From Halichondria panicea (Eukaryota; Porifera; Demospongiae; Suberitida; Halichondriidae): a DNA stretch of 64,000 nucleotides. Made by a program: the position numbers and the translations under genes. Numbering within the stretch: position 1 is the first letter of the stretch; each line of letters opens with the position of its first letter. The notes under the pieces are model-generated. The model was not told the origin of the DNA. It was given only the letters and a program-made list of their open reading frames with translations, and did not search any database. The DNA lies in assembly GCF_963675165.1 (NCBI RefSeq), contig NC_087389.1, positions 5,554,120 to 5,618,119 on the forward strand, in the 5' to 3' direction. Shown here in pieces: positions 1 to 45,350 of this stretch.

Positions 1-2310
1 AGACACCAGCGTAAGACACACATGGAACAGAGATAGGGGGATGATGGTAGGAGCAGTGAGTGCATTCATACATGTCTGTATACTGTAACTTACATGCTGT
101 TGTTCCAGTAATCATTAGCAGTAGTCACATTAACAAGCAGTAGGACACGGACATGTAGAGAAATGAACATGTTCAAATACACGAATGCATTCACACATGT
201 ATACATCAATTATTGCAAGTACACGTCTGTACAGCATGAAACTATCAAGAGCAGTACCAATCCTAAATAAAGCCACACAATTTCTGCCTTCATGCAGTAG
301 TACATGTACACAAGTCAGTCTAGTTTGCCATTAAATATACAATGCTCAGCTAGCGCACACTGACAATAATAAACTCACGCGCTGTTGTTGAGTAACAGTC
401 CACAGAGGGTACATGTGAGGAGAGAGGGATATGAACACACTGGTAGTAACTCAGTACACACACTGGCTAGTACACACACAGGTACTTAGTACTAGCAAGG
501 GCGTATACAGAGAAGAGGGCATGCAACTCACCCAATTCTCAGAATCATCCGACTTCGTATTGAGCTATTTTTAGAACTGCCCACAAAACGCCCACGCGTA
601 ATCTTTGACCGCATAAGGTAAATCAAAGTCTTTTTTATATCTGTGCTAGCTAGCTAGCTCGATGGCAGCATAGTAAAACTAGTTCTCAGCAGCAGTATGG
701 CTCGTACTAGCAGTGTCAAAGGCAAACCATCCAACAGTTGCAACTCTAAGAAGATGAAACCTAGGTACAATAAACCTGTCTTCCTGAGTCTCTGGTACTT
801 CTTAACAATGCGCCCAGCACTTAACTTCCCGCTCGAAGGGGTTGTCTTGGACCTGGCTGGACTAGGACTGGTCATGACACTTCTCTAAAATAATACTCCA
901 CTGTTAGCTAGCTAGCTAGCAAAGGCTAGGCAGCTCTGATGTACACGCCCATAATTATAACTCCGTAAACAACACCGCCCACTTGTTCACGTCCGTATAC
1001 TGGATTCTATTTTTAGCATATCCGGTCTCTGATACGAAGTCCGACGAGTACGTAGGGTACATAGTGAGTTGCATGCCCTCTTCTCTGTATACGCCCTTGG
1101 TACTAGCAATGGCAGATAATGGAAGGGTCAGTAGGTGGGTCAGTGGAAGTGACGGTAAACGGTACAACAAGCATCTTACATGTACAACTTTGATACGTAT
1201 GATTTTGTTTGTCGTACAATACAACACATGGACTCCATGAGACATACACACAATCACAACATACCTTAATGTCACGCTGAGACACATCAAATGGTACATG
1301 TGAGGGAGAGATTTAATCTTAACATACATACAAGACATCAGATCAGTTGAACGCTGTTGTGTATGGGACTGACTACACATAGCAACAAGTGGAATACATC
1401 TAGACCTAAGAAGCTCACCTCCTACAGTAGTCCAAATCAGTGTGAGGTCCAACATAGAAATGAGTGTGTGCATAGGAAGAGACAAACACGATAATGTACC
1501 AACTTAGATGCATATTCTATGAACCAACAAAAGTATTAAAAGTACAACCTAATAAGTTTTGTGGGCCTCGCCTAATACCAAGTTGGCAATATGCAAATTG
1601 AGAGATAAAGACATTTTACGATTTCCTACAATTAGTGTAGGAGTTCCTATAGTAACCATTAAAATAAGTGTACACGTGCAAACACAACTTACATGCTGTT
1701 GATCCAGAGAGGGAGAGTCCACAGGGCAAACACGTGGGAAGATAGTAAATGAATGATTACGAGGTTGAATGTGATCATACTAAATATTTCCCTATATAAC
1801 ACTATGGCACTGCACACACACAAGAGTAATAATGGGGAAGTAGAAACATCACAGAATATGCAACAGACACTAAATACTCTGACAACACACACCAACTTAC
1901 ACGCTGTTGTTTCAGAGGGTCAGTCAAAGGTGAGGTGGAGATGCATGAAATGGAAGGAAGAGAACATTAGTGCAGTGATAGAGTACACTAGTGATTGCAT
2001 GACACAGGGGAGGGGAAACAATTGTGGACAGCCAAACATGCAGACTGAAACACTTGATTAACCATGCATACTTTCAGGTACTACTACGAGTAGATCTACT
2101 GGTCTCAATTAAGGAATAGTATCACATTCAGTTATCCGTATGTGCTCTTCTTTACACTGTCTACCTCCTAACAACAAGTGCTCAGAGTACAAGCATGTCA
2201 GCTTGGTAGAATGTGATTGCACACAACGTACCTCAATGTTGCTCTGTTGTCCATCCAGAGAGAGTGGTACATGTGGAGAGAACAACAACATGAGATAAAA
2301 CACCTCACAC
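1..2310 (-). other. Short repeated exon-like segments (unit A)
   Basis: On the minus strand the motif CTGGA(A/T)CAACAG or a close relative recurs, each time followed at once by a good splice donor. Examples lie near 95-110, 385-400, 1,265-1,285, 1,690-1,715, 1,905-1,920 and 2,235-2,265. Each looks like the end of a short exon encoding a glutamine-rich peptide (for example SLDQQ or LKQQ). They lie upstream of the coiled-coil exons seen at 34,291-34,859 in the unit B neighbourhood. Acceptors and frames cannot be fixed for most, so this is a candidate array of small coiled-coil exons rather than a defined gene. Confidence 0.35.
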
Positions 2311-2775
2311 TGACAGGGTAGAGTGTAGGCACTATACTGTGATGAATGAATGATGCCAAGTGTGTTTATGGGTGGTCAACAAGTACATCTAGGCACTAAG
2401 AGAATGCACTGATCATTGAGTATCTATCTATCATGTGAATATCATACCCTTTCCCGACGAGTGAGTCCCTCCATCAACTGTGGGGAACTAGCAGCATTCA
2501 GTGTTGTAGATTCAGCCATTTTCACTCTCAAATTAGTTCTTTGTTTTTTTTCAAGGGCTGTTCAAAGAGGGGCGTTGCTTGTAGGTTAAATGAGGGAATT
2601 CCCCACAGCAGACAATTATGTAAGGGAATTTCCCAGCAATTAAATTTGATTTGCAAAAACATTTCATACAACATTAAAATTGTAGACCACAGTCAATAAT
2701 TGTATCAAATGATCACTTGAGGACAACACAATGAATGAGGTATAATTATACAAAAACAAAGTGTGTAAATTATGT

Positions 2776-2875
2776 TCAGTTCAAGTCCAGGAAGCAGCTG
2801 TCACAGACTCTGACCAACTTCTTTGAGGAGGGCAGCTGGGTGCTTTGTGAAGTGCACTGTTGGCAGAATACCATC
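2776..2875 (-). CDS. C-terminal half of a FYVE zinc finger (copy 1)
   Basis: The exon follows a (CA)n tract and CACAG acceptor and ends at an in-frame stop. It reads FCQQCTSQSTQLPSSKKLVR followed by VCDSCFLDLN. The CxxC, the basic stretch and the final VCDSC pair match the second half of FYVE fingers such as EEA1, which bind phosphatidylinositol 3-phosphate on endosomes (family knowledge). The first half (WxxD and R(K/R)HHCR) is not visible upstream, so the finger is incomplete here. Further copies lie at 7,070, 37,776 and 56,978. The host gene is not identified. Confidence 0.65.
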
Positions 2876-2887
2876 CTGTGTGTGTGT

Positions 2888-2932
<45 letters not shown>

Positions 2933-3787
2933 GATCCATTAATTAATGAACGTCTGAACATACGTAACAGTACATACATGACTGTACATGTAGACACGGC
3001 TTATAATAATCATCTGTTGGAATCTACAGGTAGGCAGTGGTATCCATTAGTATCTGTTACTGAGGTATGCACTAGAATAGCCTAGCGTATATAGACTAAC
3101 AGGGAGCCGGTGTGTGTGTGGGCGTGTACTACAGTACACTAGAATATTTGGGCCCAAAAGCAATCACTGATCTCTAAACACATCATTAGATGGTATTTCA
3201 AAGGACAGTTCATAGTACTACAGCTGTTTGCATAGCCTGTGTATACAAATCCTAAAATCTTATCATTACCACAAAATCACCATACAATGTTGCTATTCTA
3301 ACAACATCCTGAGCAATGATGGCTTCCAGAACTTGTATGGTACTTTTTAGGGCTAATATTTTCTGTGAGATAAAATTAGACCCTCGACAATTCCCCGCTA
3401 TAAGGTGGTATCAATGGTAGATGCTCTTATCTACTCTTGGTGGTATGGAAACTCACATACAAATTATGGTAAGGATTTGAAGTAGAGAATGGGCTGGGAC
3501 TAGCTTGCACATACCAGCAGATATACCTGTATAGCTACTAATCTGTCCACTGCATGTATGGAAAGCAGTGTGAAGGCTGAACAGCATGCAAGTCTCAGCA
3601 TAAAGCGTTAATTGGTAGATCCCCAGTGTTCTATGAGTTCCCATAGTCTAGTTCTAGAAGCCATCATTGCTCTTCTTATTTATAACTATACTACATACAT
3701 GTACATGTATTTATACTATTTGCATAGCAACATTGTATGGTGGTTTGTGGTAATGCAGTGAATGATTTAGCAAGGTCTGTGCAAACA

Positions 3788-4304
3788 CAGGGATTGGAAA
3801 CGGAAGTAGCGTCACGTGACATTTTAGATTGAATTTGCAGCATGGCACCAGAGAGCCTTTGATGTCAATCCGTGTTACGGTTGCTCAACACACGGGAAAC
3901 AATGTTTCATGAATTATGATCACTACAAGATATTCAGAGCCTCCCTAAAACGTCATTCTCATGCCCACTAATGATGAGCATCAGTTGGAAAAGAAAAATA
4001 CATTTTTGACTTTTGTGAAGATAGCTAGAGGTACAAAATGTTCTTTGTCACGCTATGAAATCTTTATGTACCTAGAATGCTTCTAAGACTGTGCAACTCA
4101 TCGGTGTACGTGTCCCACCCCATATGGTCTCAAGTGTCAGTTGGAAGTGCAAGTTTTAGTACAAATGTAGTAGCAGACAGTCGAAGGTACTATCTAGCTT
4201 AGATTTTACTAACGTTAGATACACAGCCTCGATTATACCCCGGCGTAATGCGGATATAATTCAAGGAACTTCCGTTTCCAATCCCTCTCCCTATTCAATC
4301 TATG
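3788..4304. mobile_element. Fold-back (MITE-like) element, unit A only
   Basis: The ends GGGATTGGAAACGGAAGT and ACTTCCGTTTCCAATCCC are inverted repeats, and CACGTGAC lies just inside the left arm. Unit B at 38,786-38,815 reads through without it, with a short unrelated stretch in its place. The ends resemble the element at 58,923-59,640. No coding frame is evident inside. Confidence 0.6.
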
Positions 4305-4632
4305 GTAGCACTCACTGTACCTGTAGTCCTGCCTGCAGCTGTTGGGTCTGTCCTGCCAGACAAGAGCTCTCTTGTATCAGCTCCGGTCCTCCTCACTATC
4401 CTGTGAGGGTGTGTGAGGTATGTGTTGAGTGTGAGGGTGTGTGGAGTGTGTGTGGGGGTGTAGGGTGTGTGGAGTGTGTGTGGGGGTGTAGGGTGTGTGG
4501 AGTGTGTGTGGGGTGTGTGAAGGTTACCAATTATATGACAGATTTTCATAAAAAATTCATGGACCAGTAAAAAATAAAAATTAAGAGGGAGGTTTTAGAT
4601 GGTATAGCTGGTTATTTTAGAGGCACGAAATT

Positions 4633-6060
4633 TTCTATAGGACCATCAAACACCACCCACTTACGGTCATCATTTTGTGCAGGTGCAAACTCCCTACACA
4701 CACAGATATAAGCACTGATCAACCACACAATGATACGTACGTAGCTATCAAAATGGCTGTAAAAAAAGCGCAAGGCTATTATATACTTTGCTTTTGCTAA
4801 AATTGCCGGATTTCTAAAAAACTTACATCTACATGTAAGCACACCATTGGAAAGGTTGTTCTGAGAGCTAGCAATTAGATTTGAAATTAGAACAAAAATT
4901 ACAGGCTACCAAAAACAGCTGAAAAGCTATAGCCTTGTGCTTTTGTTACAATAGAGCGCAACTATATATGCACAGGCTTAGGCTCACCTGAATGTGTTGG
5001 CTACCACACCGTCAGTCCACTCGTGTGACACAGGGTCAAACTGACCAAACAGTTGACCTTTAGTGACACCCTTGGGGTTGATGACTCTATAGCCTGTCTT
5101 GTTCTCTTCCATCTGTCCCCTCTCATTGATTAGTGTGAGTGTGTCAGCTAGTACATGTACCTCTAGGACCTTGGTCTTGCCTGGTGTGTGTGTGTGTGTG
5201 TGTGTGTGCGTGCGTGTGTGCGCGTGCGTGCGTGTGCGTGTGTGTGCGCGTGCGTGCGTGCGTGTGTGTGTGTAGGGGGGGGGGGGGTACTACGGTAGAT
5301 GAATAGCAATGGTATTGTATATAGGAGGGAGGTTGTTAAATTCCACTACAACATGACCTTAGAAAGTACAAGTGGTACTGGGGCTCTTTAAACGGCCTTA
5401 ACTTTAGTTGCAATTTCAAATTTTGGGGAATTTTCTGAAAGCTATGATTTGTTTAAATCCAAAATTTGGTAGGGGAATAGTTAGATCGCAAAGATTTTTT
5501 ACCGGCAAAACATTCTAGCCATACGGCAGGCCTCTCCTAGCTTATAGTACCATACCTTGGGTAGGTTGACGTCCATGATGGATCTGAGCAGTAACACGTC
5601 TTCATGTTCGTTAGGGTACTTCAGTTTCAGATGACCGGCTGCCACCAACACTGACTCGACTGCACGCATGCCTACAGTGTACAATAGTGAGTAGGTCGAG
5701 TATACAGTACAGTGGGTTGTACCCACCATAGTCAGAATGGAGTTGGCTGGAGAGTTGCTCTGAACACAGTCCATAGGTCATGACAATCTTGACGGCCAGA
5801 TTACGAGCATCCACAAAACCATAAGAGTAGAGAGAGATCTCTCCAATCATGGCATAGTCTGGCACCATTATGGCCACTGTACGAAACAACACCTACAGAG
5901 AGAAATATTGAAATGCATAGAGGCTAAATAGAAAGTACCGATAGTTACCTTTAGATTGTCTGGTAGTTCAGAGCAGCCAGCATAACCTGGGTTCATGGTT
6001 CATGGTGATGCAGACAAAGCACGATGGCCGCAGGTTCAGAGTAGTGCCCTCAAATACAAA
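4633..6060 (-). pseudogene. Axonemal dynein heavy chain fragment, copy 1
   Basis: Minus-strand exons match the AAA1-AAA2 part of a dynein heavy chain, the motor of cilia and flagella. In order: 6,060-5,949 (CFVCITMN, GYAGCSELPDNLK), 5,892-5,727 ([20 protein letters not shown]), 5,671-5,556 ([20 protein letters not shown]), 5,180-4,988 (GKTKVLEV..., [20 protein letters not shown]) and 4,687-4,633 ([11 protein letters not shown]). The sequence resembles the DNAH1/3/7/10/12 group more than DNAH5/8 or DNAH2. Three lesions suggest a dead fragment: a 7-nt duplication inside TMNPGYAG (5,991-6,004), no exon for the roughly 70 residues expected between DVNLPK and GKT, and truncation after FDGPI. The rest of the 4,000-residue protein is absent. 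Confidence 0.75.
5181..5290. repeat. (GT)n/(CG/TG)n microsatellite before a dynein exon
   Basis: On the minus strand this (CA)n-rich tract, ending in a G run at 5,275-5,287, sits immediately upstream of the ACCAG acceptor of dynein exon 5,180-4,988. The equivalent tracts at 10,333-10,397 and 39,994-40,036 differ in length and interruptions. Confidence 0.85.
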
Positions 6061-6180
6061 TGTCTTTAGATGAGTTTTCACTGCTCTCAAGATGGACAAA
6101 ATGTATAGAGTAATTATAGGGATTGTTAAACGGCCATAATAATAATAATTTTTTTTTATATAGATAATAAAATTATACTA

Positions 6181-6512
6181 CCGTAAGACCTCGATTTAAG
6201 GCGACCCTCCAAATATGCGACACCTGGGAGCTTCAGCAATTTTCTGACCTCTAAAAGTAGCGACAGCTACGTTGATAATTATTTTTTAATGTTGCGTTCT
6301 AAATAGAGGTAAATGTAGCCACTCCCTAGCCTCGATTGTAGCCCACTGGAAAATCAGTGTTTTTAAGTAGACTCTGTAAAGTTACCTCCAATTAGATGCG
6401 ACCCTCTAAATATGCGACACCAGGGCTTCAATATAATTTTTCAACCTCCAAAAGAAGCGACCTCTGGCTTTGTAATTATTAAAAAGTGTCGCTTTAAATC
6501 GAGATCTTACGG
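6181..6512. mobile_element. TA-flanked MITE, copy 1
   Basis: The inverted ends are CCGTAAGACCTCGATTTAA and TTTAAATCGAGATCTTACGG, with TA on both sides (6,179-6,180 and 6,513-6,514). It has internal repeats of the type GCGACACC and no transposase. The TA duplication suggests mobilisation by a Tc1/mariner-type enzyme (inference). Confidence 0.75.
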
Positions 6513-6797
6513 TATGAACCTACAGCATTCTCTAGGATGCTCCTCTCCTGGTCCTCCACTGACTTGTGATAGAGCTACTCACCACACAGCCTCATCTGAC
6601 AACACACCTGAAACAAGGGAAAACAATTTGTTATAATTATGTTGGAGAACAATAAATACTGTAATAGTGCTGCTCACAAGCATCACTTACAGGAAGATAG
6701 ACTCTTTAAGCCTGCACTCAGTATTGTATTCATTCTTGCTTTGAATCTCTTTAGTTTCTGATCCACGTGGCATCAAAGCAAAACTCAAAAGTAGGGA

Positions 6798-6878
6798 GGG
6801 AGGGGGCGGGGCTGGTGTTTTATTCATTTCCCTTTAGCCTAAGAGGGAAATGAATAAAACACCAGCCCCGCCCCCTCC
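6798..6878. repeat. Perfect hairpin palindrome, copy 1
   Basis: A 35-base arm starting GGAGGGGGCGGGGCTGGTG is followed after about 11 bases by its exact reverse complement. Copies lie at 11,933-12,012, 41,586-41,663 and 55,391-55,469. In the last copy GGGGGCGGGG has become GGGGGAGGGG and the change is matched on the other arm. Confidence 0.85.
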
Positions 6879-7069
6879 TACTAATTAATTGTCTCTCTCA
6901 AGAACTTATGACAATGACAATTTATAGCACCAATAGAACAACAGACAAATAGTTATAATTAATGTCCAAAATTGTAGACCACAGTCAATAATTGTATCAA
7001 ATGATCACTTGAGGACAACACAAAATGAATGAGGTATAATTATTCAAAAACAAAGTGTGTAAATTATGT

Positions 7070-7168
7070 TCAGTTCAAGTCCAGGAAGCAGCTGTCACAG
7101 ACTCTGACCAACTTCTTTGAGGAGGGCAGCTGGGTGCTTTGTAAAGTGCACTGTTGGCAGAATATTAT

Positions 7169-7169
<1 letters not shown>
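7070..7169 (-). CDS. C-terminal half of a FYVE zinc finger (copy 2)
   Basis: This has the same 100-base exon and stop as copy 1, again directly after a (CA)n tract; one residue changes (TSQ to TLQ). It belongs to the extra block present only in unit A. No N-terminal half of the finger is seen nearby. Confidence 0.6.
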
Positions 7170-7208
<39 letters not shown>

Positions 7209-7702
7209 GGTGTGGGTGTGTGTGTGTGTGTGGGTGTGTGTGTGGGGGTGTGGGTGTGTGTGTGGGTGTGGGGAGATCCATTAATTAATGAATGTCTGAA
7301 CATACGTAACAGTACATACATGTGTAGCTCTTAGTTCAATATTTCACAAACTTCCTTTATTTAGAATAATAGCGCATGCATTGCAGAATGCAGAGGCTGC
7401 AAAAACGCATTGATTTTATAATGACTTCAATGTAAAAGGGTGTGCCAGCTCAGCACAATTTTACTGTGGAGCTATACAGGAAGTAGTTAGTGGGTGTTCA
7501 AATAGCAATCAAAATTCCAGGCTCTTAACCGAATAGGACTATTTATAAGGCCTAGGAACAGGCCTGTATTGTCTGGGCCAGGTTTTGTGGTGGTAGTATC
7601 TGATAATGGGGATGGGTCTATGTGGTTCTTCTATAGGTGGCAAGCACAATTAACCTCTAATTTTGGTTCTTAGAAATTAGCACAAGGCATTAGTCAAGAT
7701 AG

Positions 7703-7774
<72 letters not shown>

Positions 7775-8589
7775 TGGGTGTCCTAAAATCCTTATCATTA
7801 CCACAAAACCACCATACAATGCAAACAACATGTAGCAATGATGGCTTCTAGAACTTGTATGATACTTTTTAGGGCTAATATTTTCTGGCTAATGTGAGAG
7901 ACAAAATTAGACCCTCAACAATTCCCTGCTATAAGGTGGTATCAATGGTAGATGCTCTTATCTACTCTTGGTGGTATGGAAACTCACATACAAATTATGG
8001 TGAGGATTTGAAGTGGAGAATGGGCTGGGACTAGCTTGCATACATGTATACCAGCAGATGTGGTGGGAGGGGGGGGGCGCAGTCATAGTGTGTGTGTGTG
8101 TGTGTGGTGTGTGTGTGTGGTGGGAAGGTGTGTGTGTGGTGTGTGTGTGTGGGGGTGCAGTCATAGTGTGTGTATAGGTACACTAGTTATAATTCAAGCA
8201 CGGACATGTTGCAGTAGTTGAACATCTTTCAGCAGCCATAACTTTAGTACCGTGACCCTAGTTTCAAAAATTTGATGATTTTCTGAAAGCTTAGAAATTA
8301 AGAGACCTTTCAAATGATGTATTTCAATCCAATATTTAGATGTGGCCATAATTCAACTTTGAACCCTGGGCTATTATTACATGGTATCGTGCTAAATCTG
8401 TCATCTCCCAAATATCTGGTACCATTAATTTTGAAAGGTCTTTTTCTAAGCTTTCGGAAAATCATAAAATTGGATCCACGGAATTCAAGTTATGGCGACT
8501 GAACGAGTCCACTAACCAATTGATTAAACGGGGGACATGTACATGTAGTACATACCTGCACATTAATTTATACTATTCACTCACTCTAA

Positions 8590-13722: not shown

Positions 13723-15039
13723 CGTTAACGATTGGCCATTATGTCTATCTCTGCATAATAAGAAAAAATCTAGCCTCGAATCCACGCCGATTAAAATACG
13801 GCCTGCAGGGGTGTTAGTGCACATGCGCTGCACGATTACCCAGAATCTGGGTAATCGTGCATGCCAGTAAAACTTTTAGTAAATGCTACAGGGATTTGAG
13901 GAGTTCTTAGCAACTATAATGTCGAGAGCGGAAGTACCTGTCACGTGAACAGTTACGTAAATATGGTTCATTTCAAACCAATTTTTCTCCAATAAAGCCT
14001 TTAGGCCTGTTTATTTTGGGAAAAAATCGACCTATACAGGAGGCTTTGCTCATATAATTATCTGCAAGCCTTTGCACCACAGCTAAAGCTATCCTTGAGC
14101 CCAATCGTGAGCTACTACTATTAGTCTGTCACACAAACTGTGTATCCAGCTGGAGCTAGCCTAAGAGAGATTTTACTAAGACTAGTGAAAAAAAAAAAAA
14201 AAAAAAAAAACTAAGACTAGTGATACACTTTCAACAGCTTACGGGCAGGCTGGGGCAAGTAGTAGCTCACAAAACGATTAGAATCTCAAGGATAGCTTCA
14301 GCTGACAACCTGCTGTGGTGCAAAGCCTTTATATTTACCAAAGGCTGATGTAAGTCGATGTTTTCCCAGTTTAACAAAAATGAATAGGCTCTATTGGAGA
14401 AAAATTGGTTTGGAATGAGCCAAAATTCAATCTTGTTACCAAGGTTCACGTGACAGGTACTTCCGCTCTCGACATAGCCTCGACTCCAGCCCCTTGAATA
14501 GTAGGGCCTGGTATTTACTGTTGGCGCGTGGGTGGACAATTAATTTATTATTTACCGTATTTTATCTCATTGAACATTAAAACAGTATTAATTTTTATCT
14601 TGTGATAAAGAACAGAAAAAAGAAAAAGAAGAGGCTACCTCTCTCTGTATATACTGTAGACAGAGACAGCTAAGTAAAACATCAGCTCTGTAGATTTATT
14701 CATTAACTTGAGTCTCGGATCGGATACACACTCAGGCGACAGTTAATCTCATAAGAAATTAGTTAAACCTGTGGGTAAAAAATAAATGAATGTGGATAAG
14801 TACAGTGGCTGTGACGTAACATAATGTGAGGACTACTTATTGACTTACACAATAGATTTACCATTGAAAGCACTATCCATTAATACACACTCAAGCAACA
14901 AGTCCGGATACACACTCAAGCAACAAGTCCCTCGGATCGGATACACACAAGTCCCTCGGATTGTAAACACATTCAGGCCACACAGTTCTCGGATCAGATA
15001 CCACGTACTTACTCTGTGACCAATTTTCGGCAAATGTCA

Positions 15040-15385
15040 CAACAATACTTCCTTCCAGAGAGAATGGCACTGAACGTCGAACAGACACACCAACATATTG
15101 AAGATGGCTTCACTCAGAGAAATAAGAGGAGAAATCACCATCACAACACTTCTTTCAGAGAGAGGTGCACTGGTCCTGTCAAGCTTCACATCAATCAAGA
15201 AAGGGAGTGTCTGGAAAGCAGATGGACTTGCTCTGGGACTTGCCATAGCCGGTCGGTACGGTACCCACATAAACACCAGCGTACGGACACTTCAACGCCT
15301 CCAGCTGCTTGTCTTTCAAGACTAGACCTGGTTTTCCAACACAGGATAACGCGTACGCGAGAGCAGAAGAGAAGGTAGCAGCCAT
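15040..15385 (-). pseudogene. RecQ-like helicase fragment in element 2
   Basis: The minus strand reads MAATFSSALAYALSCVGKPG, then a Walker A motif PTGYGKS followed by SKSICF, and in another frame SERSVVMVISPLISLSEAIF. Order and spacing match the helicase fragment at 16,380 (MASTEFCEAVAYAL..., PTGYGKSLCF, RSVVLVLSPLVSLI), but the sequences are clearly diverged, so this is a different helicase lineage. It is frameshifted after motif I and has no motif II. It is non-functional as read. Confidence 0.65.
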
Positions 15386-15486
15386 TACACAACTTGGACT
15401 AGATTTCTTTTTTCAATGACATCATTATAAATGAAACGGATATCAATGTTTTACAAACTAATGCGGAATAAGAATACTGATAAATA

Positions 15487-16209
15487 TAGAGTAAGTAACC
15501 CATCTTCGCCAGGCACCTATAATCGGCGGCTATTGCACGAAGCACAAGACAATTTTGCACAAAACTAACTACATGGATCTACAGATGGGTAAGAAAGTAA
15601 CAGCTCCCCAAAATTTGGAAAGAATAACTTGCTTGCGGACGGAATGGTGGTCATGAGAAGTGAGCTGCCGAATGTATCGATAATCGTCAGTGAGACACTT
15701 ATCTCCGTCTTTGCACGCTTACCAAGCACTGAAACTACCAACACTAAACAATGCTTCTTGGCACAACTCTAACTAGTGAGCACTACTTGCAGGCAAAGCA
15801 GNNNNNNNNNNNNNNNNNNNNNNNNNNNNNNNNNNNNNNNNNNNNNNNNNNNNNNNNNNNNNNNNNNNNNNNNNNNNNNNNNNNNNNNNNNNNNNNNNNN
15901 NNNNNNNNNNNNNNNNNNNNNNNNNNNNNNNNNNNNNNNNNNNNNNNNNNNNNNNNNNNNNNNNNNNNNNNNNNNNNNNNNNNNNNNNNNNNNNNNNNNN
16001 NGTCACTGACGATTATCGATACATTCGGCAGCTCACTTCTCATGACCACCATTCCGTCCGCAAGCAAGTTATTCTTTCCAAATTTTGGGGAGCTGTTACT
16101 TTCTTACCCATCTGTAGATCCATGTAGTTAGTTTTGTGCAAAATTGTCTTGTGCTTCGTGCAATAGCCGCCGATTATAGGTGCCTGGCGAAGATGGGTTA
16201 CTTACTCTA
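15487..16209. repeat. Long inverted repeat flanking the assembly gap
   Basis: About 205 bp at 15,487-15,692 is repeated in reverse complement at 16,002-16,209 (for example GTAAGTAACCCATCTTCGCC against GGCGAAGATGGGTTACTTAC), on both sides of the N run. Either element 2 contains a large hairpin or the gap joins the same sequence read from both strands. Confidence 0.8.
15802..16001. other. Assembly gap (200 N)
   Basis: Exactly 200 undetermined bases, so probably a placeholder length. The surrounding long inverted repeat is a likely reason for the failed assembly. Confidence 1.
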
Positions 16210-16379
16210 CTGCAATTTACGATTACCCAGATTCTGGGTAATTCTGCATGCGTAAACAGTGTATACCAGGCCGTCTTTCTCAGCGGCTTGGAATCGAGGC
16301 TACTCTCGACATTACAGTTGCAAGAACTCCTCAAATCCCTGTAGCTGTAATACTTGGAATTTGTTCTGTGTTACTATCA

Positions 16380-16998
16380 ATGGCGTCGACTGAGTTTTGT
16401 GAAGCTGTGGCTTATGCTCTTCGTTGCGTTGGTCTAAAGGATCTCACACTGAAGCCAAAGCAAAAGGAGGCTCTCATCCACCTGTATGACGATCATGATG
16501 TCTTTGTTTGGTTCCCCACGGGCTATGGCAAGTCTTTGTGCTTCCAACTGCTCACTGAAGCAGACAAGCTCTAGCTCTACAAGAGTTGAGAGAAGTGTTG
16601 TGCTGGTGCTGTCACCACTAGTGTCTCTGATAATAGACCAGGTTTCAGGCCTCCGGAAGAAGGGTGTCTCTGCTGTTATAATTATTGTCTGGCAACAAAG
16701 GTATTAAAGATGTAGATCTAGATAGCTATATTAAAGAATCTAGGAACTGATGATATTAATGGCCTGAACTTAGTGCATTATTACAGTCAACACTGATCCT
16801 TCATTTCATAGATGTCGAGAAGGACCTCCTTGCTAGTGTGAGTGACGTGTCCGAGGGCGGTTCTCTCTCCTCTATAGTGCTCCCGAGGCACTCCTTGGTA
16901 GAGAAGCGTAGAAGCAGCTCTTGGTCCAACGTCCCCTCTGTGACTCTGTAGTGGCAGTCGCTGTTGACGAAGCACACTGTGCGTATAAGTGGTAAGCA
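16380..16998 (+). pseudogene. RecQ-like helicase fragment (unit A)
   Basis: From ATG 16,380 the frame reads MASTEFCEAVAYALRCVGLK, then a RecQ-type Walker A motif (FPTGYGKSLCFQ), and stops after EADKL. The next conserved block (RSVVLVLSPLVSLIIDQV) is one frame over. After a possible intron (donor about 16,701, acceptor about 16,811) comes the segment before motif II and the DEAH box (VDEAHC). Unit A has lost one base here (GAGGGCGG against GAGGGTCGG in B) and has an in-frame TAG. Helicase domain 2, RQC and HRDC are absent. It is a dead N-terminal half of a RecQ-family 3'-5' DNA helicase. Confidence 0.75.
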
Positions 16999-18993
16999 AG
17001 AGTGGTTACAGTGTTTATTCGATTTGAGGCTTTTAAATATTACGAATCCCCAGGGGTGGCTACTTTTTGAGGCAGAAACATTATTTTTAAAAGTCCTTGT
17101 ATGGAATCCACTAGCCTCTATTCCAGGCCACTTTAAAATACGAACTACATGTATTACAATAAGTGGCTACATCATTTTAGGACGCGGCATATAAAACAAC
17201 ACTGCTTGAGTAAGTGCTACTTTGATAATGTCCTAAGATGTAGTGTGTTGCATATTTGGAGGGTCTCCTTAAAAAATGTACACGAGATACAATATACATG
17301 AACAATTGTACGTTAAAACATAGTGCCTTTACATGTGCTCTACTGTCTACGCAGTTTTGTATAATGATTTTACAAATGCCCCCTCACTCAACCACTTGTC
17401 TAGCACTTTGGTATGGCCTTCACTGATCTTTTTGTTAATATCGCTTCATAGCTGAGGGTGACATTGATGTGGTTTAGCCTGGCCCAAGCCTTAATTAATA
17501 ATAATTGAATAATCACTTGTTTGTCAGTAGGAGTACTGGCACTCGTAGTCTGTAGTGTGCACTCAATTCCAGCTATATTTAATTATTGTTTTTTTTATAT
17601 AACACTCTGCAGGTACAGAGATCTACCGTTGGGTTGCTGAGTACTGGCAGTCTCAACAGAAGGTGCTTGAGTATAACGTTGCTCCGATCCCTCAGCGGCA
17701 CGGCACGTCTTGTTGATATGAAGCAGTGACTAACAAAATTAATTAACAGTAATTTTTACTCTCTTGTTTTTATATTACTCTTGTCCTGGACGGGGAAACA
17801 GAGTCGCCTTCCAGCGGCTCCAACGGTCTGACGCTTAGCTAATGGTGGTCTTGCTACGTGTACGTGTGTGTGTGGGTGGGAGAAACCCCTACCCCACTAG
17901 TGTCTTTGGATATCTTTCTCGGAGCCGATTACTCGTCGGCTGCCAGTGACACTTGTGAGAGGCCTGGGCAGCCATCTCTAGCTCTCTGTTGTTTTAATGT
18001 ATTTTTCCTACGAACCATGCGGTTTAACGTATTCTCATTTTGTTTATTTTCCGTTTTATTATCAACAATAAATTTAGCGCATGTGCACTAACACCCCTGC
18101 AATGAACACCAGGCCGTATTTTAATCGGCGTGGATTCGAGGCTAGAAAAAATCCAGTCAGTTTTATTACATCTCTCCTTGAAATTATAGGAGTGCTTTTC
18201 TTTTTCTATGGCAACAATAATTATCACAAGTATTATCAACAGCTGGAGAATTGAGTTAGGTTGTGACTCTCAATGCGTCCTCGATAATCAAATAGCAGCT
18301 GCTTTCTCTTTGGGAACGTCTCTAATCATTTTCAGATAGTTCCGTCAGTGCTGAAAAGTTGTTAAAGTTGCTGAAGAGAAAACAACAAAATGAGAAGAAA
18401 ACAAGATCACCTGATTGGTACACTGCGCTTGATTTGATCACGATGTTTATCAAGATCAACACCATCTACTCGGCTATTGTTGTGATGACACAATCCACTG
18501 ATTTCTGCAGCAGCACTGAAGTTGCTGCAAGCTCAGTTTTCCTGTCCATTTGTGTTCTACTGGGAATTGCTAGCGAGTTAATCAATTGCTTTGGACACGA
18601 ATTTAAATAGCAACAAAGAATACATCGACAAGTCATTCAATCAATTGGTAACTATCGGCATGATTCTTATTGTCACTATTTGCCTTCCCTTTTATTTACT
18701 GGCCGATAATTTCCAGCCTCTCGATTGTGCGTTCAGTTGTGACACTATTGTTGCTAATGCGACCATCAGCACAACCACATGCAACCGGACGGCCAACAGT
18801 GGAGTTAGACTGGGGTTTACCCTAACCACGCTTATTATCGTCCTCATCTTCTCCAGTGTTTATTTCTATCATGTTCGATTAGCTGAAATAAATCGAAAGA
18901 AGCTGAAGAGTAACATTGTTATAATTACTGGGAAAGAAACAGTGGTGTAGAATTTAAAATTTTTCATTATAATTATCAAGTTGTATTGTCATA

Positions 18994-41286: not shown

Positions 41287-42574
41287 TATGAACCTACAGC
41301 TCTCTAGGATGCTCCTCTCCAGGTCCTCCACTAACTTGTGATAGAGCTACTCACCACACAGCATCATCTGACAACACACCTGAAACAAGGGACAACAATT
41401 TGTTATAATTATGTTGGAGAACAATAAATACTGTAATAGTGCTGCTCACAAGCATCACTTACAGGAAGATAGACTCTTTAAGCCTGCACTCAGTATTGTA
41501 TTCATTCTTGCTTTGAATACTTTTCTCTTTCATTTCTGATCCAGGCACCAGCAAAACTGAAAAGTCAAAAGTCAGAAGTAGTGAGGGAGGGGGCGGGGCT
41601 GGTGTTTAATTCATTTCCTTTAGCCTAAGAGGGAAATGAATAAACCACCAGCCCCGCCCCCTCCCACTAATTAATTGTCTCTCAAAAGTCAATGGCAATG
41701 ACAATAATTATAAGAGAGTTGCAACATGGATACTATAGGTGGTTGCAAGGCTCTGCTAATGCAGACTTGAACTTTTGGTATAGATCGTTTTTAACAACAA
41801 TGATGGACATTCATTACCCACTCCTTGAGTTTTTGCATGCAGCAAAATTAAATTGTTTATCATGTGTATAAAACTTTATGTTATGTAGCTTGGACATCTC
41901 AACCGAAGCATCAGCACCTTTTCATTTTTAATAACTTGTATTTGGGCTTTGTTCAACAAAGAAAGGCGTTGTTTGTTTTCTAAAGTAAGGGAATTCCCCA
42001 AACTGCACGGATCACCCATAATTATGCACACCGTATTTCTTAGCCCTTATTCTGGCTTATTCCTGTAGAGTGCTGATTAATCACCCACACCATCTTTTCT
42101 CTTTTCACAACAACAATTTTAGGTCACTGTCACCAGGCAAAAGCAAAGAACTGATCAGCTCTAAATCTATGCAGTCTAAGTCCAGACATTATAGCAATGC
42201 CAGTGAGTGCATATAATTACAGGCTACTGCAAAGATTTGCATAAATTATATTATAATTATATACAAGCTATAAAGTGGATGTGCATATGAGCATGACCTC
42301 CTATAAACTACTGCATAATTATTATAGTCTTCTTAAGCTACAGCTCTCCCTCCTCATGTACGTAGGGCAAGCGTCCGATAGCTCAGAGCAAGGTTGTCAC
42401 TCCTATTGGTGGACATGCTCAACACCATCCTGCAAGAGACCATCACACTCTCCAAGGGTGATCGAGTAGCAAGTGCCCGAGCTGCCATTATTGTCTTTGT
42501 TCTCTGTATGATTATATTATTTGGCCCGTTAACAATTGGCCATTATGTCTATCTCTGCATAACAAGAAAAAATC

Positions 42575-44501
42575 TAGCCTCGAATCCACGCCGATTAAAA
42601 TACGGCCTGCAGGGTGTTAGTGCACATGCGCTGCACGATTACCCAGAATCTGGGTAATCGTGCATGCCAGTAAAACTTTTAGTAAATGCTAGCTGTAATA
42701 CTTGGAATTTGTTCCGTGTTACTATCAATGGCGTCGACTGAGTTTTGTGAAGCTGTGGCTTATGCTCTTCGTTTCGTTGGTCTAAAGGATCTCACACTGA
42801 AGCCAAAGCAAAAGGAGGCTCTCATCCACCTGTATGACGATCATGATGTCTTTGTTTGGTTCCCCACGGGCTATGGCAAGTCTTTGTGCTTCCAACTGCT
42901 CACTGAAGCAGACAAGCTCTAGCTCTACAAGAGTTGAGAGAAGTGTTGTGCTGGTGCTGTCACCACTAGTGTCTCTGATAATAGACCAGGTTTCAGGCCT
43001 CCGGAAGAAGGGTGTCTCTGCTGTTATAATTATTGTCTGGCAACAAAGGTATTAAAGATGTAGATCTAGATAGCTATATTAAAGAATCTAGGAACTGATG
43101 ATATTAATGGCCTGAACTTAGTGCATTATTACAGTCAACACTGATCCTTCATTTCATAGATGTCGAGAAGGACCTCCTTGCTAGTGTGAGTGACGTGTCC
43201 GAGGGTCGGTTCTCTCTCCTCTATAGTGCTCCCGAGGCACTCCTTGGCAGAGAAGCGTAGAAGCAGCTCTTGGTCCAACGTCCCCTCTGTGACTCTGTAG
43301 TGGCAGTCGCTGTTGACGAAGCACACTGTGCGTATAAGTGGTAAGCAAGAGTGGTTACAGTGTTTATTCGATTTGAGGCTTTTAAATATTACGAATCCCC
43401 AGGGGTGGCTACTTTTTGAGGCAGAAACATTATTTTTAAAAGTCCTTGTAGGGAATCCACTAGCCTTATTCCAGGCCACTTTAAAATACGAACTACATGT
43501 ATTACAATAAGTGGCTACATCATTTTAGGACGCGGCATATAAAACAACACTGCTTGAGTAAGTGCTACTTTGATAATGTCCTAAGATGTAGTGTGTTGCA
43601 TATTTGGAGGGTCTCCTTAAAAAATGTACACGAGATACAATATACATGAACAATTGTACGTTAAAACATAGTGCCTTTACATGTGCTCTACTGTCTACGC
43701 AGTTTTGTATAATGATTTTACAAATGCCCCCTCACTCAACCACTTGTCTAGCACTTTGGTATGGCCTTCACTGATCTTTTTGTTAATATCGCTTCATAGC
43801 TGAGGGTGACATTGATGTGGTTTAGCCTGGCCCAAGCCTTAATTAATAATAATTGAATAATCACTTGTTTGTCAGTAGGAGTACTGGCACTCGTAGTCTG
43901 TAGTGTGCACTCAATTCCAGCTATATTTAATTATTGTTTTTTTTTATATAACACTCTGCAGGTACAGAGATCTACCGTTGGGTTGCTGAGTACTGGCAGT
44001 CTCAACAGAAGGTGCTTGAGTATAACGTTGGTCCGATCCCTCAGCGGCACGGCACGTCTTGTTGATATGAAGCAGTGACTAACAAAATTAATTAACAGTA
44101 ATTTTTACTCTCTTGTTTTTATATTACTCTTGTCCTGGACGGGGAAACAGAGTCGCCTTCCAGCGGCTCCAACGGTCTGACGCTTAGCTAATGGTGGTCT
44201 TGCTACGTGTACGTGTACGTGTGTGTGTGTGTGTGGGAGAAACCCCTACCCCACTAGTGTCTTTGGATATCTTTCTCGGAGCCGATTACTCGTCGGCTGC
44301 CAGTGACACTTGTGAGAGGCCTGGGCAGCCATCTCTAGCTCTCTGTTGTTTTAATGTATTTTTCCTACGAACCATGCGGTTTAACGTATTCTCATTTTGT
44401 TTATTTTCCGTTTTATTATCAACAATAAATTTAGCGCATGTGCACTAACACCCCTGCAATGAACACCAGGCCGTATTTTAATCGGCGTGGATTCGAGGCT
44501 A
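42575..44501 (+). mobile_element. RecQ-carrying TIR element 1, unit B copy
   Basis: At 1,927 bp this is the cleanest copy. TIRs begin TAGCCTCGAATCC at both ends, and the 9-bp target GAAAAAATC is at 42,566-42,574 and 44,502-44,510. The palindrome is at 42,636-42,661 and the helicase fragment at 42,728-43,347. The host reading frame is exactly restored if element plus one target copy are ignored, which fixes both boundaries. About 1.1 kb right of the helicase holds no frame I recognise. Confidence 0.8.
42728..43347 (+). pseudogene. RecQ-like helicase fragment (unit B)
   Basis: The architecture matches unit A: motif I PTGYGKS, motif Ia region LVLSPLVSLI in a shifted frame, and motif II VDEAHC. 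In B the block GRFSLLYSAPEALLGREA is in one frame but is followed by TAG where the family usually has a lysine or tryptophan. It is therefore slightly better preserved than A but still broken, and truncated after DEAHCAYKW. The start codon lies about 37 bp right of the empty TA site used by the unit A insertion. Confidence 0.75.
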
Positions 44502-45350
44502 GAAAAAATCCAGTCAGTTTTATTACATCTCTCCTTGAAATTATAGGAGTGCTTTTCTTTTTCTATGGCAACAATAATTATCACAAGTATTATCAACAGC
44601 TGGAGAATTGAGTTAGGTTGTGACTCTCAATGCGTCCTGGATAATCAAATAGCAGCTGCTTTCTCTTTGGGAACGTCTCTAATCATTTTCAGATAGTTCC
44701 GTCAGTGCTGAAAAGTTGTTAAAGTTGCTGAAGAGAAAACAACAAAATGAGAAGAAAACAAGATCACCTGATTGGTACACTGCGCTTGATTTGATCACGA
44801 TGTTTATCAAGATCAACACCATCTACTCGGCTATTGTTGGGATGACACAATCCACTGATTTCTGCAGCAGCACTGAAGTTGCTGCAAGCTCAGTTTTCCT
44901 GTCCGTTTGTGTTCTACTGGGAATTGCTAGCGAGTTAATCAATTGCTTTGGACACGAATTTAAATAGCAACAAAGAATACATCGACAAGTCATTCAATCA
45001 ATTGGTAACTATTGGCATGATTCTTATTGTCACTATTTGCCTTCCCTTTTATTTACTGGCCGATAATTTCCAGCCTCTCGATTGTGCGTTCAGTTGTGAC
45101 ACCATTGTTGCTAATGCGACCATCAGCACAACCACATGCAACCGGACGGCCAACAGTGGAGTTAGACTGGGGTTTACCCTAACCACGCTTATTATCGTCC
45201 TCATCTTCTCCAGTGTTTATTTCTATCATGTTCGATTAGCTGAAATAAATCGAAAGAAGCTGAAGAGTAACATTGTTATAATTACTGGGAAAGAAACAGT
45301 GGTGTAGAATTTAAAATTTTTCATTATAATTATCAAGTTGTATTGTCATA

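Follow-up and report, generated by a model that had tools for sequence, protein, structure and literature searches.

The TAGCCTCGA-ended elements in the window, the whole 64,000-nucleotide stretch of Halichondria panicea DNA analyzed here (C13:5554120-5618119), are very probably non-autonomous deletion derivatives of AcademH-type DNA transposons, and this reading includes the mechanism proposed below. In the excerpted text of PMC10045372, AcademH elements make 9- or 10-bp target duplications and AcademX elements 3 or 4 bp, and the length is related to the helicase or nuclease encoded. The excerpts of PMC10799480 name fungal AcademH elements as a source of DEAD and Helicase_C domains, and both papers cite Kojima 2020 (Mob DNA 11:15) for the lineage. 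Our assignment to AcademH follows these second-hand descriptions. The window elements are at most new families and no new group. The features are as follows.

42566..42574, no strand: left 9-bp target site duplication GAAAAAATC
42575..44501, + strand: probable non-autonomous AcademH-type element, 1927 bp, derived by deletion from an L009-like element of 5 kb
42575..42609, + strand: left TIR, 35 bp, perfect
42637..42658, no strand: subterminal palindrome GATTACCCAGAATCTGGGTAAT
42719..43341, + strand: N-terminal remnant of a RecQ-like helicase with PTGYGKS, interrupted by stops (Pfam DEAD for 42,719-42,919)
44108..44245, - strand: remnant matching a profile of the DUF6589 gene's first exon, which is zf-AD-like in L010 and L060
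44467..44501, - strand: right TIR
44502..44510, no strand: right 9-bp target site duplication GAAAAAATC
13771..18144, + strand: segmental-duplicate copy of the 42,575 insertion, broken by nested elements
13889..16341, no strand: nested TA-flanked CAGGG...CCCTG element including its contents, presumably a mariner-like MITE as judged from its TA flank and ends (empty site in the intact copy, 42,681-42,705)
14475..16302, + strand: second, diverged non-autonomous element, probably AcademH-type, with 9-bp duplication CTCTCGACA, nested in the presumed MITE
15115..15385, - strand: N-terminal RecQ-like helicase remnant of the second element
15487..16209, no strand: palindromic insertion within the second element, with an N run at 15,802-16,001

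Three TIR pairs in the window start with TAGCCTCGA, and exact 9-bp direct repeats flank all three; a full match was obtained at 9 bp and at none of 8, 10 or 11 bp. The element at 42,575-44,501 has TIRs that are perfect over 35 bp and is flanked by GAAAAAATC on both sides, and the TIRs and GAAAAAATC repeats of 13,771-18,144 are identical to these. Both ends of the element at 14,475-16,302 are TAGCCTCGA, perfect over 9 bp, and CTCTCGACA flanks it on either side. The positions, letters, common TIR starts and exact repeats reported in the initial annotation were confirmed in the window. The palindrome sits near one end in both elements, and as a guess it may be a binding site.

The 42,575 and 13,771 elements are one insertion copied by segmental duplication, because the flanks and the 9-bp duplication are common to both. 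The initial annotation had likewise read the second as a copy of the first. More copies with the GAAAAAATC repeat were found on the same contig. The extra length of 13,771-18,144 is the CAGGG...CCCTG element at 13,889-16,341, which houses the 14,475 element. Since 13,771 is a duplicate of 42,575 and the 14,475 element is nested separately, the window contains two independent insertions, from two related families. The initial 1014 bp of this nested 14,475 element were found again, whole or largely, at 39 or more other places with 92-99% identity (a lower bound, 40 candidates having been scored), and its native length would be about 1.1 kb. The insertion at 15,487-16,209 consists of inverted arms around a 200-bp N run.

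In both window elements, the helicase is present only as broken RecQ N-terminal fragments. The RecQ-like fragments described in the initial annotation are real. The fragments of the 42,575 element lie at 42,719-43,031 and 43,162-43,341, both on the + strand, with one stop within the second piece and one between the pieces; the Pfam DEAD score of 42,719-42,919 was 26.0 bits against a cut-off of 26. This element also retains a remnant of the first exon of the DUF6589 gene. The fragment of the 14,475 element (15,385-15,115, - strand) consists of two overlapping pieces with 46-60% identity to the RecQ pieces of L010 and L060, and is closer to the L060 helicase (60% and 50% for the two pieces) than to that of L010 (54% and 46%). 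A profile search of the genome gave no DUF6589 match in the window.

Elsewhere in the 131-Mb genome there are elements of 5-6 kb in which a gene for a RecQ-like helicase and a DUF6589 gene, the latter for the likely transposase, face each other. TIRs and the two convergent genes were found in each of L009 (5066 bp), L010 (5821 bp), L059 (5349 bp), L060 (5643 bp) and L061 (5417 bp). The 42,575 element is 81% identical to L009 across its first 805 bp and 86% across its last 162 bp. Exact 9-bp duplications flank L010 (TGCCGGCCT), L060 (GTGTTTACC) and L061 (GGTATAGCC), pairs that were picked partly by their duplication; the flanks of L009 agree at 8 of the 9 positions. The view of the initial annotation that these are transposons of one family, having RecQ and making 9-bp duplications, is supported.

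The gene content was analyzed by profile searches. Above the Pfam cut-off, DEAD and Helicase_C were detected in the L010 and L059 pieces, DEAD in L060 and Helicase_C in L061, and DUF6589 was detected in L010, L059, L060 and L061. The best PDB matches of the L010 helicase piece were WRN (2e-27) and RECQ1 (1e-25), and the L059 helicase piece matched TIGR00614 recQ_fam at 3e-61, under the curated cut-off of that model. The first exons of the DUF6589 gene are mutually related in L009, L010, L011 and L060. Those of L010 and L060 matched zf-AD with 24.1 and 21.1 bits, both under the Pfam cut-off of 28, and the Pfam scan gave no zf-AD match in those of L059 and L061. No relative of the DUF6589 profile was detected in PDB (best E, 0.67). 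The aligned DUF6589 proteins have invariant acidic residues. DUF6589 is very probably a DDE-type transposase, which would have the catalytic role.

Two elements with other TIRs share the 9-bp duplication. The TIRs of L061 and L084 start with TAG[CT]TGGGCGGAGCCC; L061 has both the RecQ and DUF6589 genes despite these different TIRs, and L084, with GGGTATCAG on both sides, retains the helicase. The repeat surrounding L084 recurs elsewhere, and, judged by coordinates, the matches to its paralogues overlap as for an empty site.

When compared with the published descriptions, the elements agree with AcademH in two traits, the duplication length and the helicase. The duplication is exactly 9 bp in both window insertions, and DEAD and Helicase_C are present in the full-length relatives of the broken window copies. 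The candidate for the third trait, an Academ-type DDE transposase, is the product of the DUF6589 gene, which is convergent with RecQ in these relatives. In element class, helicase gene and length of the target duplication, no difference from AcademH was found. AcademX belongs by name to the same superfamily, and one DUF6589 element of this genome has a 4-bp repeat and no helicase (see below); duplications of 3 or 4 bp were found at neither window insertion. The AcademX nuclease is of XPG type; nine XPG_I matches were detected genome-wide, none of them close to the window or to any DUF6589 place listed. AcademX differs from AcademH, in the excerpts, by its 3-4 bp duplications and by a nuclease in place of the helicase. 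The initial annotation had given 3-4 bp for Academ as a whole; this fits AcademX but not the AcademH helicase lineage with its 9 or 10 bp (PMC10045372, excerpts).

The initial annotation had also suggested that the group may be new or little described. A novel superfamily, or a so far undescribed set of transposons that carry RecQ and make 9-bp duplications, would agree with the absence of the word DUF6589 from the literature searched (the founding paper of AcademH apart), where PF20231 appears only in one unrelated paper. However, both the class of accessory gene and the duplication length coincide with those of AcademH as PMC10045372 describes it in the excerpted text, where 9 or 10 bp are reported. 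Thus, the claim of a new group is not supported, and we regard it as very unlikely. A Kolobok element carrying RecQ (KolobokH) was also considered. The excerpts of PMC9587614 place a RecQ helicase beside a DDD/E transposase in KolobokH, and one rhodophyte Kolobok has RecQ on the complementary strand. However, KolobokH is another superfamily, is stated there to be fungi-only and has another gene order, RecQ being downstream of the transposase domain, whereas RecQ is convergent here. In the Pfam scans, DUF6589 was the sole transposase candidate. Kolobok elements duplicate TTAA, whereas the duplications here are 9 bp. We therefore consider KolobokH extremely improbable and retain the AcademH assignment.

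To characterize the association of the two genes, the 92 DUF6589 matches were grouped into 61 clusters. RecQ was convergent within 6 kb in 32 of the 61, was otherwise arranged in 2 and was not found within 6 kb in 27; random placement gave 0.7 convergent clusters on average and 4 at most, against the 32 observed. The test used approximate lengths for three contigs, and one C3 cluster counts two genes as one. The RecQ matches formed 96 clusters: 32 beside a convergent DUF6589, 30 in the 2.07-kb L084 family and 34 elsewhere. Among these 34, C14:4023176 falls within the L009 element and C10:4196625 is part of a member of the L059 family; the remaining ones may include the cell's own RecQ genes. 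The initial annotation had held that the link would be coincidental if RecQ fragments occurred mostly without the TIRs. Of the 96 clusters, 62 lie beside a convergent DUF6589 gene or in the 2.07-kb derivative family, and at least 2 of the other 34 are in further element copies.

The identities of RecQ and DUF6589 were then compared for 24 loci having both pieces, reduced to nine families distinct at 90% identity. The two were correlated with a Mantel r of 0.90, a value attained in none of 2000 permutations. The two genes have co-diverged across the nine families; therefore, RecQ is a long-term resident component and not a captured gene. The initial annotation had also argued against an accidental capture. 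That view stands by the 32 of 61 clusters against 0.7 and by r = 0.90, but its argument from the opposite orientation of the two helicase fragments does not, as the orientation reflects merely the insertion direction of each element. MULEs make duplications of about 9 bp and frequently capture host genes, which would suit a Mutator-like element with a captured RecQ gene. However, among 30 reading-frame pieces scanned with Pfam, a selection that covers the main frames of L059, L060 and L061, no MULE transposase family was detected up to E 0.1, while DUF6589 was found; furthermore, the co-divergence over nine families misfits a single capture. We thus give a MULE next to no weight, and the AcademH assignment is kept.

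The L084 family (L084:243-2312) retains most of RecQ and has no transposase core, and at least 22 places, itself included, span positions 286-2312 of the query. A helicase-only parasite under selection was considered for this 2.07-kb family and rejected. Instead, it looks like a passenger remnant, because the main match contains TAA in 27 of the 30 RecQ clusters (counted by hand, without regard to whether the TAA is the same one) and a stop at about 1541-1543 interrupts the helicase of L084; this judgment uses the stops.

The abundance of the ends was analyzed in the whole genome. With up to 3 mismatches, the 35-bp TIR gave 256 + 229 matches (485), and a reversed control pattern gave 0. With up to 2 mismatches, the palindrome gave 230 + 218 strand matches (448), many places being counted on both strands, and the control gave 0. 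These numbers, obtained by the genome search that the initial annotation had proposed, exceed chance and suggest a large swarm of non-autonomous copies. Copies with these TIRs and without helicase, which the initial annotation had named as possible evidence against the link, do exist: the 93-bp and 58-bp TIR pairs in L008 have exact 9-bp repeats and no helicase. Such copies are ordinary for non-autonomous derivatives. Of four small TIR pairs, one had a 9-bp repeat and three had none, two of the three being one duplicated locus.

Some of the pairs described above had been picked up partly by their repeats. To estimate the duplication length free of this selection, pairs were chosen by their TIRs, without use of the duplication, which gave 9 distinct flank pairs. 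One of them, L003, duplicates the GAAAAAATC insertion. The other 8 agreed at 9/9 positions in four cases, at 8/9 in two, at 7/9 in one and at 3/9 in one (L011). Thus 7 of the 8 agree at 7/9 or better, and 4 of the 8 are exact. The 72 mismatched flank pairings gave a mean of 2.2/9 and a maximum of 9; this maximum fits the left flank of L003 being paired with its own duplicate locus. In the same sample, L026 and L027 are left ends without a right end. At L019/L020 and L024, only 7/9 positions agree.

The L059 family has six copies, five near-identical ones of about 5.35 kb (~5349 bp) and one interrupted. Because of the five near-identical copies, this family was apparently active recently. With the ends set by alignment, exact 9-bp duplications were found in four of the six copies and were absent in two. 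The L059 copy (C10:1593011-1598359) and the L064/L065 copy (C10:1620706-1626054) are near-identical and lie in opposite orientation with starts about 28 kb apart. Their right flanks are reverse complements over the first 9 bases, and both copies are without an exact duplication. Since the right flanks are reverse complements, an inversion between the two copies, or an assembly effect, is suggested.

The anatomy, the duplication length, the co-occurrence and co-divergence of both genes, and the near-identical copies of one family were observed directly, and the following mechanism may be drawn from them. Full-length elements of 5.1-5.8 kb carry two convergent genes, for the DUF6589 protein and the RecQ-like helicase. 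The putative DUF6589 transposase would bind the TIRs, perhaps also the subterminal palindrome, would excise the element and would insert it into target DNA at cuts staggered by 9 bp. The RecQ-like helicase probably acts on the ends, by opening or remodeling them, or assists in the processing of the joined DNA. Short copies, the window elements among them, have lost the transposase core while keeping the ends and scraps of RecQ, and were probably mobilized in trans.

A DUF6589 element without helicase was also found. L012 (C3) is an L010-type copy interrupted by a further element of about 6.2 kb (~1969-8168). At the interrupted site, ATTA is present on both sides and occurs once in L010, which gives a 4-bp repeat for this one insertion. 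The nested element has one reading frame only, over 1600 aa long (1617), and no helicase. This frame is related to one on C9 (L063, C9:1649000-1654500), the DNA being 99% identical over 5.4 kb, and DUF6589 is the only Pfam match of the C9 frame. The C-terminal part of the L012 nested protein recurs in the genome as 49 matching stretches. By eye, its C-terminal motifs look XPG/FEN-like to us. Searches of Pfam, NCBIfam and PDB gave nothing significant for an XPG identity, and the XPG_I matches of the genome do not coincide with this protein. Six XPG_I matches lie in open frames of 588-601 aa within about 114 kb at C13:3752339-3866203. With its 4-bp repeat at one insertion, the helicase-free element looks AcademX-like.

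If RecQ-bearing DUF6589 elements make 9-bp duplications and the helicase-free kind, with a long and possibly XPG-like C-terminal domain, makes 4-bp duplications, the accessory enzyme might set or strongly shape the stagger, and not the transposase alone. The 4-bp side of this comparison is one insertion, and we put the idea forward as a speculation that is unlikely to be right.

Taken as a whole, the link between helicase and transposon is real and old, but it has already been described as AcademH. The host possesses nine distinguishable AcademH-type families, one of them apparently recently active, and a further useful addition is the DUF6589 element that has no helicase and lies, with its 4-bp repeat, within an AcademH-type copy. 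The presence of both kinds of element side by side could serve to test the suggestion, made in the excerpted text of PMC10045372, that duplication length goes with the accessory enzyme. If the difference were true over many insertions, this genome would be a place to test the control of the stagger by the accessory enzyme.
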